A stretch of DNA of 51,730 nucleotides from a virus. The notes under the pieces were generated by a model, which was given only the letters and a program-made list of their open reading frames with translations, had not been told where the DNA came from and did not search any database. Both the position numbers and the translations under genes were made by a program. Shown here in pieces: positions 31,301 to 41,603 of this stretch; the stretch's first letter is position 1; each line of letters begins with the position of its first letter. The stretch is from IMG/VR virus record IMGVR_UViG_3300012936_000021, positions 1-51,730 of that record. One strand, given 5' to 3'.

Positions 31301-34300
31301 ATGACTTTTAATCTTATCGAAAAAAACATGATTGCATTTAATAAAGTAGAAATGCATCCTGACTTTTTGTACATTTTTGCTTCAGATAATTGTAATTCGC
31401 TTGAATTACTAGATATTGATCATTTTAGCAGTGAGATTACAGCAGGAGTGTACGGAGGACAAAAATTATCAAACATTAAAATTAAAAAAGATAGAGTCTA
31501 TAATGTAAATAGTACCTTTATTAATGATGATAGAAATACAATAGATAAGATTACAAGCGCTAAATCTGATCTGCAAAGTGCAGAAACTTTAGCATCAAAT
31601 GTTGAAAATTTATACATTGCAAACTTAACAAACCAAATACAAATTGACAACGCAAATGCAATGAACAAAGGCATTTTGTTTACAAATAAAAAAAATATAT
31701 TGGAAAACTTTGGACTTTTAAGCTTAGATAACGACTCTTTTGAATTTAAAGTTGAAAATTATAATTTTGACTATTTAATAGATAGTGAATACGTTTTGAA
31801 AGTTAATTCTACTAAGAATTTATATGAATACTACAATAGAGATTTAGAACAAAATAATTTTTATGAACTAGATCATGGTTTTAATAACTATAGTAGTTTA
31901 AATTTTTTTAATATATCAAACAATTTTAATAGTAATTTTAAAGAAGATACAACACACAAAAATTGTTTGATATATCCAAACTTAATGAATAATAGTGTTT
32001 TGCAATACTCTTTTAATAAAAACAAAGATTTTACTGTAAGCTTTTATATTAATCCAAGAAGAAAAAATACAAAAAACTTCCATTATAATCCGGGTTGTGT
32101 ATTAAGCATTCCAGGTATTATCTCTATATTTATTGTAAAAGGAAGTAACTTAGATGAAGAAGAATTAACTGATGGTTTTAGGTTATACATTCAAACAGGC
32201 GAAGATACTTATAATGCTTTAACTAATCAAGATTTCGATTTAAGCAGACTGGAATCTCAAAACAATAATCTTAATTATTTAAGTGAAGATAATTTATTAA
32301 AATTTAATTGTTGGCACAACGTTGTTGTTAGTTTAAAAGAAAATATGACCCAAAATGAAAGTGGATATAACCTATCTTTAAACGTTGATGGTATTTTGAA
32401 AGAAATTGTTTTTTCTAACAAAGATATAGAAAAAAGTAATTCAGGAAGTTATATCTTAATTGGAAATAAATTTAATATTCAAAAGAACAATAACAGTGAC
32501 TTTGTTTTGCATGCTTTTTCAAAAAACAATCTTGCTTTAGATGACAACGAAGGTCCATATGTAAATAAACATATCAAATTAGGATCGAATATAGACTATG
32601 TTTTAACTTCTTTGCCTGATCCTAACAATACATATACTTTAAACAACTCTTTAAACGCAAGCAATTCTGATTATATTGATAATAATACGAGTATGGCACT
32701 TAACGCAGAAATTTGCGATATTAGAGTGTATAATACTTTTATTGATAGTCAAAAATCAAAAGATATATTTCTAAATAGCGTAAAAGACATAGAAAATGAA
32801 ATAAGAGATTATGGCTTAGTTTTTTATGTTCCTGTCTTTTATAGATCACAAAATGTAAGAAAAAAAGGACTAATTAATTTAAATGCTCCATACCAAAAAA
32901 CGCATGAGACGCTTGAATTAGTTAGTATTGGTGGCGGAATTGCTCAAAGCCTTGTAGATGTAACAAATTTTGTAAACATTGATGAAAATTTAACTGGAGT
33001 TTATGAAATTGACGGTGAAGATGAAAATAAGTGGCCACAAGCTGAGGTGGATTTCAGGGTAAAGACACACAATATTTCTTATGATTATCCTATTAATCCA
33101 TATTTTTTTAACTATACTGGCGGTACTGAAGTATCTGTAGAACATTTTGTAAGAGATTTTGTTGGAGAAACGCAGCCTAACATTATAATTGGAGGTTCAA
33201 TTAAAGAAGATAGATATCAAGACTGTTTCTTAGTAAAGCCTTCTAATATTATTGGCGAAAATGCTAAACTATTAAACAAAATTGCAAAGTCTGGAGGTAC
33301 TGCAGACGATCTCTTAGAGAAAATATTTAGCGAAGAGATTTTAGATGAACAAACTATAAATTCATTAAACGTCGACTTTCAAGATAACAACATATTATAT
33401 AGAAATTATATGATTTTGCCTAATGATAATGGAATTCAGAATCAATTTTATAATAATAGAATTTTTAAGTATAAAAATAATGAAAACGTAAGCGTTCATT
33501 TAAGAAAAAACAAAAACATAGATTATGGTTTTGTGTCACTAAATTATTTAGATAAATCTGCTTTAAGAACAAACATCTTTAATCAAAATAGACTAGTTGT
33601 TGATGAATACTTGTTACATACACAAAACACCTACGAGTCTGATAGTCGTAGAAAACTTTTTTATTTTGAAAACCAGGAAATACAAAGCTTTGTATTGGGT
33701 GCTTCAGCACAAATACAAGGAAAGAGTTCTTTTCCGCAAAGTCAAACTTTTATAGAAACTTCTGACAAATTAAAAAATATTTCATTATCAAATTATTTTA
33801 ATGACTTAAATGTACTATATATACATGAGCTAGATCAAGACTCGATTAATAGACTAAGTTTTTGGAGAAAGAATAATACAGATGGAAGTATAATCTTAGA
33901 TTTAAGCTCTGCTTCTGGGCTGTTTAACACAATGTCAAATCCATGTCAAAGAAGCTACTATTCGTCAATGGAAAATTCTTTTTCTAAGACAGAAGTTTTT
34001 GACTATAAACCGCTAGAAGAACAAAACAATATAGCATATTTTAAATTAAATATGCCACTATGGCAAACAATGCCGACAGTTTTAGAAAATGTTTCAAACT
34101 ATTTTTATATCTCAAAACAGCTTTTTAATAAAAAAGTCAAAAGAGAAACTTTAAACTTAAAAGACGTAGAACTACCTTTAACAAGTGGAATAAGAATAAA
34201 CTTAAAAGATACTAGACTAGGAACAATTTATAGAGCTGATAGCTTAACGCCACATGCTAAATGGAATACTCTAGGTAATATTTTGTATCATGAAGGAATT

Positions 34301-34621
34301 ATAAGAACTTGCCATGTAGGTTTACATAATTTTGGTAAAACAAATTTTCAAATAAATACAAAGACAACAGCATGTTTAAATGTATCTGAAATTAATTTGC
34401 CAGCATTTGCTGGAGGCTCAAATTTTTCTAGAAACAATTCATATATAAGTGATTTAAGAATTGATGAATCAGATTTTAACAAAGATGAAGATTTTACATA
34501 TATTACAGATATCGACATACATGATGAAAATTTAAATAAAGTTGCTGTAGTTAAACTATCACAACCTTTTGCTAAGAAAAATAGTGATAATGTTCTATTT
34601 AGAGTAAAGATGGATTATTAA
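31301..34621 (+). CDS. Large structural protein with LamG-like domain
   Basis: The 1106-residue product has a laminin-G-like sandwich at about residues 235-480. It runs from D-F-T-V-S-F-Y-I-N-P, through W-H-N-V-V-V-S-L-K-E, to E-I-C-D-I-R-V-Y-N, the usual order of strands in this fold. The C-terminal 40 residues form the same module as in the preceding protein (Y-I-T-D-I-D-I-H-D ... V-V-K-L-S-Q-P ... V-K-M-D-Y). The middle (about 530-1000) is unassigned. LamG domains in tail proteins suggest binding to host polysaccharide. The gene starts one base after the upstream stop and ends directly before the TTG start of the resolvase gene, closing the 26-kb structural block. Confidence 0.58.
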   Translation: MTFNLIEKNMIAFNKVEMHPDFLYIFASDNCNSLELLDIDHFSSEITAGVYGGQKLSNIKIKKDRVYNVNSTFINDDRNTIDKITSAKSDLQSAETLASNVENLYIANLTNQIQIDNANAMNKGILFTNKKNILENFGLLSLDNDSFEFKVENYNFDYLIDSEYVLKVNSTKNLYEYYNRDLEQNNFYELDHGFNNYSSLNFFNISNNFNSNFKEDTTHKNCLIYPNLMNNSVLQYSFNKNKDFTVSFYINPRRKNTKNFHYNPGCVLSIPGIISIFIVKGSNLDEEELTDGFRLYIQTGEDTYNALTNQDFDLSRLESQNNNLNYLSEDNLLKFNCWHNVVVSLKENMTQNESGYNLSLNVDGILKEIVFSNKDIEKSNSGSYILIGNKFNIQKNNNSDFVLHAFSKNNLALDDNEGPYVNKHIKLGSNIDYVLTSLPDPNNTYTLNNSLNASNSDYIDNNTSMALNAEICDIRVYNTFIDSQKSKDIFLNSVKDIENEIRDYGLVFYVPVFYRSQNVRKKGLINLNAPYQKTHETLELVSIGGGIAQSLVDVTNFVNIDENLTGVYEIDGEDENKWPQAEVDFRVKTHNISYDYPINPYFFNYTGGTEVSVEHFVRDFVGETQPNIIIGGSIKEDRYQDCFLVKPSNIIGENAKLLNKIAKSGGTADDLLEKIFSEEILDEQTINSLNVDFQDNNILYRNYMILPNDNGIQNQFYNNRIFKYKNNENVSVHLRKNKNIDYGFVSLNYLDKSALRTNIFNQNRLVVDEYLLHTQNTYESDSRRKLFYFENQEIQSFVLGASAQIQGKSSFPQSQTFIETSDKLKNISLSNYFNDLNVLYIHELDQDSINRLSFWRKNNTDGSIILDLSSASGLFNTMSNPCQRSYYSSMENSFSKTEVFDYKPLEEQNNIAYFKLNMPLWQTMPTVLENVSNYFYISKQLFNKKVKRETLNLKDVELPLTSGIRINLKDTRLGTIYRADSLTPHAKWNTLGNILYHEGIIRTCHVGLHNFGKTNFQINTKTTACLNVSEINLPAFAGGSNFSRNNSYISDLRIDESDFNKDEDFTYITDIDIHDENLNKVAVVKLSQPFAKKNSDNVLFRVKMDY

Positions 34622-35200
34622 TTGGAAAAAAACGTAAAATATGTAGGGCTTGATATTTCTACTTCTATAATAGGAGTTTGTTTTTTAGATAAGAATCAAG
34701 ATATTATACTCTTAGATTCTATTAATTTAAAAAAAATTAAATGTTTATTTGAAAAGTCAAATTTTGTTAGAAAAAGATTTGATCTATATAAAGAAGAATA
34801 CTCTTTTGAAGAAAATATGGAGCTATCAATAGAAGAAGCATTTCAATCTTTCAGTAAAGGCTTTTCTTCTGCTAGAACTTTGTCACAATTAAATAGATTT
34901 AACGGTATTGTATCTTATTTATGCTGTGAAGTATTTAATATAAAACCTGTATATATAAATGTTAACACAGCGAGAAAAAATTTACAAATAAAAATAAATA
35001 AAAAACTAAATAAAAACACAAAGGAACAAGTCTTTGAATGGGTTAAGAACAGTATAGATGATGACTTTCCTTGGCCTATAAAAACAATATCAAGAGGAGT
35101 AAATAAAGGTGTTGTAAAATTTGATGAATGTTGTTATGATATGTCAGACGCATTTGTTATTTGTAAGGCACTTTTATATTATGATAAAGAAAACTCCTGA
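34622..35200 (+). CDS. RuvC-like Holliday junction resolvase
   Basis: The 192-residue protein shows the RNase H-like fold of RuvC resolvases. The first strand ends in G-L-D-I-S-T-S-I-I-G-V (Asp11), a middle helix carries I-E-E-A-F (Glu71/72), and the C-terminal helix has Y-D-M-S-D-A-F (Asp173 and Asp176). These four acidic positions would bind the two metal ions that cut the junction strands. Phages use such enzymes to remove branches from replicating DNA before packaging; T4 itself uses the unrelated gp49. The start is TTG at 34622, directly after the upstream stop, because the catalytic GLD lies only ten codons in and the next Met is at residue 66. It overlaps the primase gene by 20 nt and belongs with the recombination and replication genes that follow. 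Confidence 0.75.
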   Translation: MEKNVKYVGLDISTSIIGVCFLDKNQDIILLDSINLKKIKCLFEKSNFVRKRFDLYKEEYSFEENMELSIEEAFQSFSKGFSSARTLSQLNRFNGIVSYLCCEVFNIKPVYINVNTARKNLQIKINKKLNKNTKEQVFEWVKNSIDDDFPWPIKTISRGVNKGVVKFDECCYDMSDAFVICKALLYYDKENS

Positions 35201-36179
35201 AGAAAAATACTATTTTTTAAGCAAATATATTGATACTTCAATTTCTAAGGACGGATTAAACGCTAACATTTGGTGTCCTTTTTGTAAGCATCCTAATAAA
35301 AATAAGCTAAAAATGGTAATACATCTTGAAAGCAACATGTATCATTGCTGGTTGTGTGATAAAAAAGGAAGAAATGTATCTTATCTTCTGTCAAGAATTT
35401 CAAAGAAAATTTCTGAAGAATCACAAAAGTATTTTGGAAAAAATAAAATTTTAAAAAAAAGCAACATACTTTCAGAAAAAACATTACAGTTCTTAGGGCA
35501 TAGTTTAGTCGAAGAATCTGAAGAAAAAGTAGAAATTCCACAAAAATTTGACTTACTAGTTAACGCATATAACTCTAATGACCCAGACGTAAGAGATGTT
35601 TTTAAATATGCAATTAAAAGAGGCGCTAGTAAAAACAAGTTTTGGTTTTTAAGGCTTGGTTATTCTCTGCATAGCGACTTTAGACGGTATTTAATATTAC
35701 CTTCTCTCGATGCCAACGGTGAGATTAATTTTTACACAGCAAGAAAAATTGATGTTGACACTAGTAGTGGCTTTAAATACAAAAATGCAGCAATACAAAA
35801 GAAAAATATTATATTTAATGAAATTAACATTGACTGGTCAAAGCCTTTAACAATTGTTGAAGGGCCTCTTGATCTTCTTAAGACCAATGAAAACGCAACT
35901 TGCCTGCTAGGTTCATCACTTACAGAAGATATGTTGTTATTTAAAAAAATTATAAAAAATAACACTACAGTTAATCTTGCTTTAGATTCAGATGTTTATC
36001 ATAAAACTTTAACTATAGCAAAACTATTAGACACATATAATATTACGGTTAATATCGTTAATACTCGAGGTTTTGAAGATGTTGGAGAAATGACTTCAAA
36101 TCATTTTTTACAAAGGTTAGAACAAGCAAAAGTTTTTTCTGACACTGATTATCTATTAAAAAAAATATCAACTCTATAA
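35181..36179 (+). CDS. 61: DNA primase with zinc ribbon and TOPRIM domain (gp61/DnaG-like)
   Basis: With the start at ATG 35181 the protein has 332 residues. An N-terminal zinc ribbon has C-P-F-C (Cys32, Cys35) and H-C-W-L-C (Cys56, Cys59), as in primase zinc-binding domains. The central part has the DnaG-type segment ending F-Y-T-A-R-K, and the TOPRIM domain shows V-E-G-P-L-D (Glu227) and A-L-D-S-D (Asp269, Asp271). These acidic residues hold the metals for RNA primer synthesis. T4 gp61 (342 aa) has the same size and order. The frame is open to 35121 upstream, but those extra codons lie inside the resolvase gene and precede the conserved fold, so 35181 is preferred. No gp41-type helicase gene is in the window. 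Confidence 0.8.
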   Translation: MIKKTPEEKYYFLSKYIDTSISKDGLNANIWCPFCKHPNKNKLKMVIHLESNMYHCWLCDKKGRNVSYLLSRISKKISEESQKYFGKNKILKKSNILSEKTLQFLGHSLVEESEEKVEIPQKFDLLVNAYNSNDPDVRDVFKYAIKRGASKNKFWFLRLGYSLHSDFRRYLILPSLDANGEINFYTARKIDVDTSSGFKYKNAAIQKKNIIFNEINIDWSKPLTIVEGPLDLLKTNENATCLLGSSLTEDMLLFKKIIKNNTTVNLALDSDVYHKTLTIAKLLDTYNITVNIVNTRGFEDVGEMTSNHFLQRLEQAKVFSDTDYLLKKISTL

Positions 36180-36188
36180 GGTTATAAT

Positions 36189-39100
36189 ATGACAGTTAAA
36201 ATTGCACACATATCAGATATTCATTGGAGAAGTTTAAAAAGACACGAAGAATATAAAATTGTATTCGAAGATCTTTTTAAAAATCTTAAAAAAAATGTCC
36301 CAGATATGATTTTCCTCGGAGGCGATATTGTTCATTCAAAAACACAAAGTATTTCTCCTGAATTAGTAGAAAATTTAACTTGGTGGTTTAACTCTCTTGC
36401 AGATATAGCGCCTACACATATTATTTTAGGAAATCATGACGGACTTATTCTTAATAAAGATAGACAAGATGCAATTACTCCTATAGTCAATGCTATAAAT
36501 AATAAAAATATTTTTCTATATAAAAAAAGTGGCGTATATCCTGCTTTTACTTCAAAAGAAGGAAAAATATTTAACTGGTGCGTTTTTAGTTGTTTTGACG
36601 AAGAAAACTGGAAAAACGTTTTACCTATTGAAAATGATATTAATATTGCTTGCTTTCATGGCGCAGTATGGGGTTCAAAAACAGATGTTGACTGGGAGCT
36701 TGAAGGAGAAGTTAATCTGTCTATGTTTGATGGGTTTGACTTCGGTTTTCTAGGTGATATTCACAAATACCAGTTCTTAGACAAAGAAAAACGAGTAGCC
36801 TATCCAGGATCAACGATTCAACAAAATTACGGAGAAGATATTCAAAAAGGATATTTGCTTTGGGAAATTAATGATAAGTATACTTTTAAATCTAATTTTA
36901 TTAAATTAAACAATCCTTACCCGTATGTAACAATTAACTGGCAAGAAAATATAGAAAATACAATTAGATTTTGCGAAAAAGTTAAAAAAAATTCAAGATT
37001 TAGAATAAAGTCACAGTCAGCAATATCACAAGCTGAAATAAAACTACTTTATCACTACCTGAAACACGAGAAAAATGCAAAAGAAATAGTTTTTCAAAAC
37101 TTAAATAAAGATACAGTATTAAATAAAAATAATTTATCTAGCAATAAAGTCAACGATGTCTTAGACATAAGAAATAAAAATTCTAGATTAAAGCTTTTAA
37201 ACCAATTTTTCTGTAATTTGTCACAAGAAGAACTTGAAAAAATTAACAAGTTGTATGAGGAAAGTTTAGATAAAACAAGTATTGCTCTTGATTCTACTTC
37301 TAGTAACTGGTCAATTAGCTCTTTAGAATTTAACAATACTTTTTCCTATGGAAAAAATAATTTTATAAACTTTAATAACTTAAATGGCGTAATTGGTTTA
37401 TTTGGAAACAACAGAACAGGAAAATCTTCTATACCCGGCACCTTAATGTATGCCTTATATAATACCTCAGATAGAGGATCTATTAAAAACCAAGATATTG
37501 TAAACACTAGAAAGGGATTCTGTGATGCAAAAGTTAAATTTTCTATAGGCTCTGAAAATTATGAAGTTAAAAGAGAAACAATTAAAAAAACAAACAAAAA
37601 AGGCATAACATCTGCAACAACTAATTTATCTCTTAAAAATACATCGTCAGGCAACAGTGATATTACAGAAGAACAAAGAAGAGAAACAGATAAAATCGTT
37701 AGAAGATTAATAGGAACTGCAGACGACTTTCTTTATACTTCGTTTGCTTCGCAAGGAGAAATGAATACTTTTATTAAAGAAAAATCATCTGCAAGAAGAG
37801 CTGTTTTATCAAAATTTTTAAATTTAGATTTGTACGAAGAAATCTTTAAAAACTCTAGAGAAAATTATATCGTTCTCAAGAACAAATTAAAAAACTCTAC
37901 AGAGAAAAATTGGCCAGTGTTAATTAAAGATATTGAAGAAGAAAAGATTAAAAACGAAAAAAACAAAATAAATATTAATAAAAATTTAGAAAAACTAAGA
38001 AATAAAGAAGTTGATTTAAAATTAGAAATAAAAGAAATTGAAAAAAATATAAAAAATCATCCGTCTGGATATGACTTTCATAGTGCAAAAAGTCAGCTAT
38101 CATCGCTTCTTATATTAAAAGAAGATCTTCAAAAAGATTTAGCACTAATTAAAAACAAAATTAAAGAAAATACACAAAGTCTAGAATCAATTGAAAAATT
38201 TAAATTGAATTATCCTGTTAAAGACTTAGAAAAAGATAGTGAAAAACTTAGCGTTTTAGTAAATAAACTAAAAGATTTCAAGTTTAAAAGAGACCAAATT
38301 AAAAAAGACTTTTCAGCAGCAGAGTCTGAAATTAAAATTCTTGACGAGGTTCCTTGCGAAGATAAATTTCCAGGCTGCAAATTTATTAAAAACGCTTATG
38401 AATCAAAAAACAATATTAAAGAGTTATTAGAAGACATTAGAAAATTTGAAATAGAAATATTTTCTTTGCAAAATACTGTAAAGGCTTTAAAGAAAGAAAA
38501 TATAGATCAAAAAATAAAAAAATACAATGAAGTCTTACAAAAAGAATATAAATTAAAAGTTGACAATAAAAGTCTTTTGGAAAAAATAGAAGTAAAGTCT
38601 GATAAAATTAAAAGTATAAGTAAAGACATAGATAATATTGAAAATATAATTTTAGAATTACAAAACTATACTAATGATGGTTTTAATGTAAAGTTCAATA
38701 AGTTAAAAACAGAGTTAAAAGAGATAGCAGGACTTATTTATTCTGAAGAGAGAAGTCTTTCTAATAACATAGAAGACTTTATTGAAATAAAAAATAAACT
38801 AAACAATCTAATAAAAGAAAAAAAAGATTATAATAATTTACTAAGTGAGTGGAAAATATTTGATTTTTTTAACTTAGCAAATTCAAAAAAAGGAATTCCT
38901 TCAATGCTAATTAGTAGTTGCTTGCCTAGCATTAATAATGAAATTAACAATATACTAAGTGGTGTTGTAAATTTTAAGATTTCCATAGAAGATAATGAAA
39001 ATAACTTAGATGTCTACATAGATTATGGTGACTCTAGAAGAATTATTGAATGTGCTAGTGGTATGGAAAAAATGATGACATCAATAGCAATTAGAGTTGC

Positions 39101-39329
39101 TCTTATTAATATTTCTTCTTTACCTAAGTCTGATGTTTTTATTATTGACGAAGGTTTTGGCGCTTTAGATGATTCGAATATAGACGCATGTGCTATGCTT
39201 TTAAAAAGTTTAAAAAAGTACTTCAAAACAATTATAATAATATCACATGTTGATTCAATCAAAGATATTGTTGACAAACAATTAGAAATATCGCTAAAAG
39301 GAAAAGATTCATATGTCGAATATAGATAG
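36189..39329 (+). CDS. Mre11-Rad50 (gp47-gp46) fusion nuclease-ATPase
   Basis: One uninterrupted 1046-codon frame joins two proteins that are separate in T4 (gp47 and gp46). Residues 1-345 form an Mre11/SbcD phosphoesterase: S-D-I-H (Asp10, His12), G-G-D-I-V-H (Asp46), G-N-H-D (82-84), F-H-G (His157) and G-D-I-H (190-192). From about residue 370 a Rad50/SbcC ATPase begins, with Walker A G-N-N-R-T-G-K-S-S near 406. Two long coiled-coil arms (roughly 570-715 and 735-890) flank C-E-D-K-F-P-G-C (about 722-730), a stretched version of the CxxC zinc hook. The signature A-S-G-M-E-K-M near 956 and Walker B F-I-I-D-E-G-F-G near 986 complete the head. The complex processes DNA ends for recombination-dependent replication. 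It overlaps the next gene by 17 nt. Confidence 0.9.
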   Translation: MTVKIAHISDIHWRSLKRHEEYKIVFEDLFKNLKKNVPDMIFLGGDIVHSKTQSISPELVENLTWWFNSLADIAPTHIILGNHDGLILNKDRQDAITPIVNAINNKNIFLYKKSGVYPAFTSKEGKIFNWCVFSCFDEENWKNVLPIENDINIACFHGAVWGSKTDVDWELEGEVNLSMFDGFDFGFLGDIHKYQFLDKEKRVAYPGSTIQQNYGEDIQKGYLLWEINDKYTFKSNFIKLNNPYPYVTINWQENIENTIRFCEKVKKNSRFRIKSQSAISQAEIKLLYHYLKHEKNAKEIVFQNLNKDTVLNKNNLSSNKVNDVLDIRNKNSRLKLLNQFFCNLSQEELEKINKLYEESLDKTSIALDSTSSNWSISSLEFNNTFSYGKNNFINFNNLNGVIGLFGNNRTGKSSIPGTLMYALYNTSDRGSIKNQDIVNTRKGFCDAKVKFSIGSENYEVKRETIKKTNKKGITSATTNLSLKNTSSGNSDITEEQRRETDKIVRRLIGTADDFLYTSFASQGEMNTFIKEKSSARRAVLSKFLNLDLYEEIFKNSRENYIVLKNKLKNSTEKNWPVLIKDIEEEKIKNEKNKININKNLEKLRNKEVDLKLEIKEIEKNIKNHPSGYDFHSAKSQLSSLLILKEDLQKDLALIKNKIKENTQSLESIEKFKLNYPVKDLEKDSEKLSVLVNKLKDFKFKRDQIKKDFSAAESEIKILDEVPCEDKFPGCKFIKNAYESKNNIKELLEDIRKFEIEIFSLQNTVKALKKENIDQKIKKYNEVLQKEYKLKVDNKSLLEKIEVKSDKIKSISKDIDNIENIILELQNYTNDGFNVKFNKLKTELKEIAGLIYSEERSLSNNIEDFIEIKNKLNNLIKEKKDYNNLLSEWKIFDFFNLANSKKGIPSMLISSCLPSINNEINNILSGVVNFKISIEDNENNLDVYIDYGDSRRIIECASGMEKMMTSIAIRVALINISSLPKSDVFIIDEGFGALDDSNIDACAMLLKSLKKYFKTIIIISHVDSIKDIVDKQLEISLKGKDSYVEYR

Positions 39330-39601: not shown

Positions 39602-39973
39602 ATGGATTTTGAATTAATTCAAGGGCTTTCAAGTGCAATTGACAACGTATATAACTACACATCTGAAGATGGTGCGAGAAAGACAAAAGCTAAGCTAATT
39701 GATAACCAAATGCATATTACATATGTTACAATAATTAACGCTGCTAGAGAATCAGAGTTAAATTTACAATTATCACTTGTTAAAAAAGAAACAAATGAGA
39801 TGATTAACTCAAGACTTAGAACCATTAAATCAGAGTTCAAAGATGCATCAAAAAGATCACTAGTAACTAAAAAATGCGGAATGTCTGATAACATCGAAAC
39901 ACTAACTGTTAGTCCATATAGTCCGTTTAGAAAACTTAAATACTCCTGTACATATGTCTACGAAGTAAAATAA
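39602..39973 (+). CDS. Unrecognised 123-aa protein before the large terminase
   Basis: The 123-residue product looks like a compact alpha/beta protein. A helical start (L-I-Q-G-L-S-S-A-I-D-N-V-Y) is followed by a strand (M-H-I-T-Y-V-T-I-I-N), a charged helix with K-K-E-T-N-E-M-I, and a final strand pair (L-K-Y-S-C-T-Y-V-Y-E-V-K). It has no membrane segment and no motif I recognise. AGAGGT precedes its ATG. It sits 4 nt before gp17, where T4 has gp16, so a packaging or head role is possible, but the residues do not resemble gp16 and the better gp16 candidate is at 3949. Confidence 0.5.
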   Translation: MDFELIQGLSSAIDNVYNYTSEDGARKTKAKLIDNQMHITYVTIINAARESELNLQLSLVKKETNEMINSRLRTIKSEFKDASKRSLVTKKCGMSDNIETLTVSPYSPFRKLKYSCTYVYEVK

Positions 39974-39977
39974 ACTT

Positions 39978-41603
39978 ATGAAGTCAAGAAACGCTCAAAT
40001 CAACGAAATAATAAAGTGTGGCAAAGATCCTGTATACTTTATGAACAAGTATTTAAAAATTCAACATCCTCTAAAAGGCTTAATTAATTTTAATACTTTT
40101 AACTTTCAAGACGATTGCGTTCAAGACTTTAATGATCATAGATTTAATATAATTCTTAAGTCACGTCAATTAGGTCTTTCAACTTTAGTTGCTGCTTATG
40201 CAGTTTGGCAAGCCTGCTTTTATAAAGAAAAAAATATACTTATCATCGCGACAAAATTAGCTGTTGCACAAAACTTTATAAGAAAAGTAAAAACTTATAT
40301 TAAGTCAATGCCAAATTGGTTATTGGTGCCAATAATAACAGCAAACAACAAACAGCAAGTAGAATTTTCAAATGGCTCGCAAATAAAAGCTGTACCAACT
40401 TCAGAAGATGCAGGTCGATCAGAAGCTTTGTCACTTTTGATTGTTGATGAGGCAGCTTTTGTAAGAAACTTTGACGAGTTATGGATGGGATTATATCCAA
40501 CACTATCTACAGGCGGCCGTGCAATACTTCTTTCGACCCCAAACGGTGTAGGCGGGCAATATCATGATATATATTCAAAAGCTTTAAGAAAAGAAAACGA
40601 ATTTAACGCTATAAAGCTCATGTGGGATGTTCATCCAGAAAGAGATGACGTCTGGTTTGAAAAAGAAACAAAAAACATGTCGAAAAAGCAAGTTGCGCAA
40701 GAATTGCTTTGCGACTTTTCTTCTTCTGGTGATACTTTTTTATCAAATGAAGTCTTAGAAGACATAAGAATTATGACAAATTCACCTATAGAAAAAAGCG
40801 GCCCTAGTGGTAATATATGGTACTGGGATTATCCTTTGGAGGGTAATAACTATATTGTATCATGTGATATTGCAAGAGGCGATAGTGGTGATTATTCAAC
40901 TTTTCATGTAATAAATACAAACAAGCTTTCAGTTTCAGCTGAGTTTAAAGGGAAAATTCCTCCAGATCAATTTGCTGTTGTTGTATACGATATTGCAAGA
41001 AGATTCAATAGTGCAATGATATGTCCTGAAAACAATGCATACGGCTATACAATGTTAGTTAAATTAGCTGATCTTGCATATAAAAATATTTATTTTAGTT
41101 CTGAAAAAGAAAAATATCGCTATTTATATGGTGAAGGAGATAACTTAGGAAAAGCAGGCTTTACTACAAGTAAAGAAAGCAGAGACAAGATACTTGCTAA
41201 TCTTGAAGAATGTCTAAGAAACAAAAAAATAAAAACAAGATCACAAAGACTTTATGCAGAGCTAAAAACTTTTATCTGGAATGGTAAGAAAATTACTGCT
41301 ATGAAAGGTTATAATGATGACCTGATAATGTCATTGGCAATTGGATCTTGGATTGCTGCAAGTAATTCTAGTACTTATAACGCTAGTCAAATTCAACAAG
41401 CAGATGCAATATTAAGAGGAATGGAAGTTAACAACAATAAAATAAATAATACAATATCACCATCACCTTTTTATAAAAATAATCAAAATGCTGTTAATCC
41501 ATTTATTCCTGTTTATATGCCAGATAATAAATTTAACAGTAATAATAAAAACATTACTAGAAAAAACCCACTTGGCGATTTAAGTTGGTTGATTGGAAAA
41601 TAA
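39978..41603 (+). CDS. 17: Terminase large subunit gp17 (packaging ATPase and nuclease)
   Basis: This 541-residue motor protein has an N-terminal ATPase with a Walker A-like loop S-R-Q-L-G-L-S-T (62-69), Walker B L-L-I-V-D-E-A-A (153-160) and coupling motif L-L-S-T-P-N-G (184-190). The C-terminal RNase H-like nuclease shows C-D-I-A-R-G-D (Asp297), P-E-N-N (Glu351) and N-D-D-L-I-M-S (Asp447/448). It docks on the portal and pumps DNA into the prohead, cutting the concatemer at each end of packaging. T4 gp17 is 610 aa, so this is slightly shorter but complete. The portal gene begins 3 nt after its stop; in T4 the sheath and tube genes lie between these two, and here they do not. Confidence 0.92.
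   Translation: MKSRNAQINEIIKCGKDPVYFMNKYLKIQHPLKGLINFNTFNFQDDCVQDFNDHRFNIILKSRQLGLSTLVAAYAVWQACFYKEKNILIIATKLAVAQNFIRKVKTYIKSMPNWLLVPIITANNKQQVEFSNGSQIKAVPTSEDAGRSEALSLLIVDEAAFVRNFDELWMGLYPTLSTGGRAILLSTPNGVGGQYHDIYSKALRKENEFNAIKLMWDVHPERDDVWFEKETKNMSKKQVAQELLCDFSSSGDTFLSNEVLEDIRIMTNSPIEKSGPSGNIWYWDYPLEGNNYIVSCDIARGDSGDYSTFHVINTNKLSVSAEFKGKIPPDQFAVVVYDIARRFNSAMICPENNAYGYTMLVKLADLAYKNIYFSSEKEKYRYLYGEGDNLGKAGFTTSKESRDKILANLEECLRNKKIKTRSQRLYAELKTFIWNGKKITAMKGYNDDLIMSLAIGSWIAASNSSTYNASQIQQADAILRGMEVNNNKINNTISPSPFYKNNQNAVNPFIPVYMPDNKFNSNNKNITRKNPLGDLSWLIGK

Follow-up and report, generated by a model that had tools for sequence, protein, structure and literature searches.

A single-chain Mre11–Rad50 protein, probably of the R555 type, in a marine T4-superfamily phage

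Described fusions and the gene in the window

Fusions of Mre11 and Rad50 have been described in mimivirus (protein R555), Bacillus phage 0305phi8-36, plasmids, bacteria and eukaryotes (Yoshida, Claverie and Ogata, Virol J 2011, PMC3175470). The same study proposed that such fusions arose more than once. In R555, His replaces the third Asp of the SbcD motif, and the residue corresponding to P. furiosus His206 is an Asp. Aquatic viral fractions are rich in R555 homologues, which lie on scaffolds that also carry phage primases of the SPO1, Twort and S-PM2 types, and aquatic phages were inferred to carry R555-like copies; these environmental fusions were confirmed in just a few scaffolds of the GOS marine metagenomes, without a complete Rad50 half. 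In the solved T. maritima complex, the C-terminus of Mre11 lies ~28 Å from the N-terminus of Rad50, a distance that 9–12 residues would span (PMC3175470).

The window analysed here is a 51,730-nucleotide stretch of virus DNA (IMG/VR record IMGVR_UViG_3300012936_000021). A sequence-only reading had claimed a covalent Mre11–Rad50 fusion in one frame at 36189–39329, and translation, domain matches, fold matches and relatives all confirm it: the stop-free translation of the + strand is a 1046-residue chain with an Mre11-type nuclease followed by Rad50. The frame starts with ATG, a few bases downstream of AAGG. Between residues 301 and 419 there is no in-frame ATG or GTG, and TTG occurs only at 344 and 355, so a separate, internally started Rad50 is unlikely. 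No second Rad50 or Mre11 was found within the window, which is itself just a fragment of a genome. The parts of the gene are as follows.

36189..39329, + strand: Mre11–Rad50 (SbcD–SbcC) fusion gene, 1046 aa (translation, domain matches, relatives, AlphaFold model)
36189..36923, + strand: Mre11-type nuclease domain, residues 1–245 (Pfam Metallophos, SbcD/Mre11 structure match, conservation)
36924..37103, + strand: capping domain, residues 246–305 (model secondary structure, SbcD structure alignment)
37176..37271, + strand: probable Rad50-binding helix-loop-helix, residues 330–361 (model helices 330–340 and 346–361, kept in fused homologues)
37272..37304, + strand: Mre11-to-Rad50 linker, residues 362–372, ~11 aa (model, pN/pS, length among relatives)
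37305..37823, + strand: Rad50 N-terminal ATPase lobe, with Walker A at 37404–37427 (translation, conservation, structure match)
37824..38888, + strand: Rad50 antiparallel coiled coil, residues 546–900 (model helices)
38355..38378, + strand: hook apex C723-x6-C730 (CEDKFPGC), a variant of the C-x2-C zinc hook (Cys conservation, comparison with other Rad50s)
38889..39326, + strand: Rad50 C-terminal ATPase lobe, with signature SGMEK at 39057–39071 and Walker B IIDEG at 39141–39155 (translation, conservation, structure match)

Pfam Metallophos (calcineurin-type phosphoesterase) matches residues 4–193 (E 1.4e-12), PHROG 77 SbcC matches residues 260–1045 (E 4e-48), and Pfam AAA_23 matches residues 378–621 (E 1.3e-5, slightly under its curated cut-off); the NCBIfam sbcd and sbcc models each match the protein, also under their curated cut-offs. 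The Mre11 motifs lie at DIH 10–12, GGDIVH 44–49, GNHD 81–84, H157 and GDIH 189–192, and those of Rad50 at Walker A GNNRTGKS 406–413, hook C723/C730, signature SGMEK 957–961, Walker B IIDEG 985–989 and His1020; the motif positions first given for this gene were correct within one or two residues. The Rad50 half is a bipartite ABC head carrying Walker A, signature, Walker B and His, and an antiparallel coiled coil separates its two lobes.

An AlphaFold model built from 33 sequences has a mean pLDDT of 82 and a pTM of 0.51, a value that leaves the relative placement of the domains unestablished. Within it, residues ~1–305 align to solved SbcD/Mre11 structures (Z ~23; the SbcD nuclease and capping structure covers 3–305), and residues 374–1046 align to solved E. 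coli SbcC and archaeal Rad50 (Z ~28). Residues 308–322 form a low-confidence stretch, and the first Rad50 strand begins at 373. The helix pair at 330–361 is a probable Rad50-binding helix-loop-helix of Mre11, by its position and by comparison with the published description (PMC3175470).

The neighbouring genes are as follows.

34622..35200, + strand: RuvC-like Holliday junction resolvase (PHROG 159/827)
35121..36179, + strand: DNA primase, directly upstream of the fusion (PHROG 47, E 1e-31; 28 other loci have a homologous ORF in this position)
39602..39973, + strand: 123-aa protein with no named function, downstream of the fusion (homologous ORF downstream in 43 other loci)
39978..41603, + strand: terminase large subunit of the T4 superfamily (PHROG 2, E 1e-50; nearest to Immutovirus and Mel-JY01, 39%)

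The 123-aa protein has no PHROG or Pfam match; the same holds for a 1106-aa ORF (31301–34621) upstream of the RuvC-like gene. Downstream of the 123-aa protein, the order continues with terminase, portal, protease and capsid genes. The terminase and major capsid proteins are nearest to those of Flavobacterium phage immuto, Mel-JY01 and a 484-kb phage, and by these two proteins the phage is assigned to the T4 superfamily.

Gene content and model together point, with a probability of roughly 0.87, to a fused gp46/gp47 analogue (the Mre11/Rad50, or SbcD/SbcC, end-processing enzyme on one chain) of the R555 type, which likely assembles as M2R2 and would resect and tether DNA ends.

Relatives, hook and nuclease active site

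A scan of IMG/VR with the fusion protein gave 51 loci. The fusion is full-length and in a single frame in 41 of the 51, cut by a contig end in nine and interrupted by an insert in one (L047). The 32 relatives aligned with the window protein are between 39% and 60% identical to it, and the key catalytic, Walker, signature and His residues are invariant in 44 aligned sequences. The fusion is also present in an isolate, Microcystis phage Mel-JY01 (WWT39521.1, 1066 aa, with 'AAA domain containing protein' as its sole annotation), and a 735-kb phage assembly (L055) encodes a version of 1202 aa. Between close relatives, pN/pS is 0.13 in the nuclease, 0.46 in the helix-loop-helix plus linker, 0.39 in residues 362–376 and 0.11–0.15 in the Rad50 heads. 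These ratios indicate that both halves and the junction are under purifying selection, the junction evolving as coding sequence.

Complete or truncated fusions also occur on contigs L056, L057, L059, L060 and L062, in bins of Halobacteriovorax, Methylococcaceae, Nitrosopelagicus, an unclassified bacterium and Bacteroidetes; these contigs in bacterial and archaeal bins are possibly phage contigs.

An insert of ~0.9 kb interrupts the fusion gene in two divergent relatives, at ~1931–2838 of L047 and at ~3676–4584 of L054 (the 484-kb phage LR756508.1). The two share their site, in the nuclease between GDIH(R/K)xQ and a GSxIQQNxGE-type stretch, beside active-site codons. Each insert has an ORF of its own; the one in L047 encodes 295 aa and includes Cys pairs and a YVQFDGVYWHG stretch. 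ELExYLxxGW is common to the read-through tails of both. The insert looks like a homing-endonuclease-type element. Neither interrupted gene had an Rfam match to a known intron class, Pfam gave no match for the L047 ORF, and inspection by eye revealed no intein motif in either interruption.

At the apex of the coiled coil, the C-x2-C zinc hook is absent and C-x6-C stands at 723/730, as first noticed from the sequence; both Cys are invariant in the 33 aligned sequences of the marine clade (consensus VPCGDxFPxCKFIK). The Rad50-type assignment rests on the ATPase head and coiled coil; the hook is taken as a variant of the canonical zinc hook. In fusions farther from the window clade, C-x2-C occupies this place (Mel-JY01 CKHC, L055 CVTC, L059 CSFC, L060 CTYC, L062 CEFC), and split Rad50s have it too (T4 gp46 CPTC, Exiguobacterium phage CSQC, phage G CNFC). 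Since the distant fusions and most of the unfused phage Rad50s examined carry C-x2-C, the C-x6-C spacing is probably derived within the marine clade. The hook region was also considered as a widespread phage motif and rejected: tblastn with the 28-aa hook peptide gave only matches at E = 2, located in the sigma factor/gp47 region of cyanophages and not at a hook. A literature search, for which most subscription papers were out of reach, found no published account of a C-x6-C hook.

The unfused SbcC of Moorella phage MTATph1 (L065 2381–4513) has CNDKLKPSC, a C-x7-C, in a VPC...C context that resembles the window clade. A long hook spacing is thus not unique to the window clade; a survey of hooks by way of relatives of the Moorella SbcC turned up none in viral contigs. 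The clade's C-x6-C hook is a natural case in which to ask how far dimerisation depends on zinc-hook geometry.

The nuclease half has the SbcD/Mre11 fold. All Mre11 motifs had been reported in it, and motifs I–V are indeed present, but two of them depart from the canonical form by clade-wide ligand swaps. Motif II is GDIVH (GDxxH in place of GDxxD), with H49 invariant in the 33-sequence alignment, and motif V is GDIH (GDxH in place of GHxH), with D190 invariant in all 44 aligned sequences. The change of His to Asp in motif V and of Asp to His in motif II could alter metal use or activity. A bolder proposal would join these swaps to the hook, with the apex rebuilt into a longer dimerising C-x6-C loop (by metal or otherwise) and a distinct, ligand-swapped metal centre making up a biochemically distinct single-chain machine; this is doubtful.

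The swaps also bear on whether the nuclease half works as a nuclease at all, or whether the protein is instead an ATPase and tether with a structural phosphoesterase domain. D190 is invariant across the fused family and H49 across the 33-sequence clade, whereas motif V is GHxH in the split SbcD proteins of three phages (T4, Exiguobacterium phage and Moorella phage), a point in favour of lost activity. However, Asp and His can each bind metal, the remaining catalytic residues are conserved, and pN/pS is as low in the nuclease as in the ATPase heads. Loss of nuclease activity is accordingly considered very improbable, and an active fused end-processing enzyme is the preferred reading.

Assembly, role and integrity of the gene

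The sequence-only reading proposed that a covalent 1:1 link would change M2R2 assembly. This does not follow, because two fused chains supply two nucleases and two Rad50s and so still give M2R2. Most likely, two chains would pair at three points: their nuclease domains, ATP bound between the two Rad50 heads, and the hook. Such pairing would rebuild an ordinary M2R2, in which each set of Rad50-binding helices docks on the coiled coil belonging to its own chain. As ATP is bound and hydrolysed, DNA ends would become accessible to the nuclease or be closed off from it. By resecting ends and tethering DNA, the enzyme would serve recombination-dependent replication of the phage genome and its repair. 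Under this model, the fusion would mainly fix 1:1 expression and assembly, with docking in cis expected. The geometry is supportive: a linker of ~11 residues follows the probable Rad50-binding helix pair, and the T. maritima termini are ~28 Å apart (PMC3175470).

The chain might nevertheless not form M2R2, being a monomer, taking some other arrangement or being cut into two proteins after synthesis. The linker region is the least conserved, residues 308–322 are of low confidence in the model and the hook spacing departs from the canonical one, all of which would suit such a reading. Against it, the helix-loop-helix, capping and linker lengths are kept, the stretch from R328 to W374 spanning just 47–51 aa among relatives, and the arrangement fits the geometry of the solved complex (PMC3175470). 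A product other than M2R2 is hence given little credence, and the single-chain M2R2 enzyme is retained. As a 1046-aa chain with fixed 1:1 stoichiometry, it could suit structural work.

That a sequencing or assembly indel joined two neighbouring genes by erasing the stop and start that had parted them, a doubt raised when the fusion was first noticed, has nothing behind it beyond the general possibility of artefact in a virus record assembled from a metagenome, and it is ruled out by independent homologues: the same co-linear, full-length fusion is carried by 41 other IMG/VR contigs, the Mel-JY01 isolate and the 735-kb phage, and the junction evolves as protein.

Comparison with known systems

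E. coli SbcCD and archaeal and human Mre11–Rad50 resemble the window protein in fold over both halves (Rad50 head Z ~28, nuclease Z ~23); they consist of two polypeptides, with longer coiled coils and a canonical active site and hook. Among phages, T4 gp47/gp46 and the SbcD/SbcC of Herelleviridae belong to the same two enzyme families and likely have the same role, but they are encoded by separate genes and have a GHxH motif V and a C-x2-C hook. In Flavobacterium phage immuto, a search for separate SbcCD gave only marginal profile matches (E about 1e-3); the profile clearly detects T4 gp46 and the Exiguobacterium phage, phage G and Moorella phage proteins, yet it missed T4 gp47, so that a diverged immuto nuclease could escape it. 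In a small maximum-likelihood tree of Rad50 heads, with sparse sampling and very long branches, the fused proteins split from four unfused phage proteins with a support of 86. The tree, which does not include R555, is compatible with a single fused branch.

Mel-JY01 also belongs to the T4 superfamily, and its terminase and capsid proteins are related to those of the window. The Mel-JY01 fusion protein has the GDIH motif and 34.5% identity to the window protein (two pieces, 68% of the query). It differs in its C-x2-C hook (CKHC) and in its terminase gene, which does not adjoin the fusion.

With the R555 type, the window protein has in common the domain order, kept capping and helix-loop-helix regions, a short linker, an aquatic viral origin and a phage primase as neighbour (PMC3175470). 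The capping region is kept, the helix-loop-helix corresponds by position only, and the linker, ~11 residues here, falls within the 9–12 residues of the published description (PMC3175470). Both active-site changes, GDxxD to GDxxH and GHxH to GDxH, are shared as well, the R555 state being taken as given in PMC3175470 and not from an alignment. In the fold search with the model, the top viral matches include full-length proteins from mimivirus relatives (Tupanvirus, Harvfovirus, Yasminevirus and Catovirus) and from Tenacibaculum phages. R555 itself is longer, with 1351 aa and a longer coiled coil, whereas the window protein has 1046 aa and a C-x6-C hook.

By comparison with the published description of R555, the window protein belongs to the already described R555-type group. 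The idea that fusions of this kind were unknown is not borne out, being largely answered by that description (PMC3175470); the kind has been on record since 2011, and only the altered spacing of the zinc hook is somewhat new. What the present set adds to the 2011 description is 41 full-length genes and a link to a marine lineage of the T4 superfamily in which the neighbouring genes are conserved.
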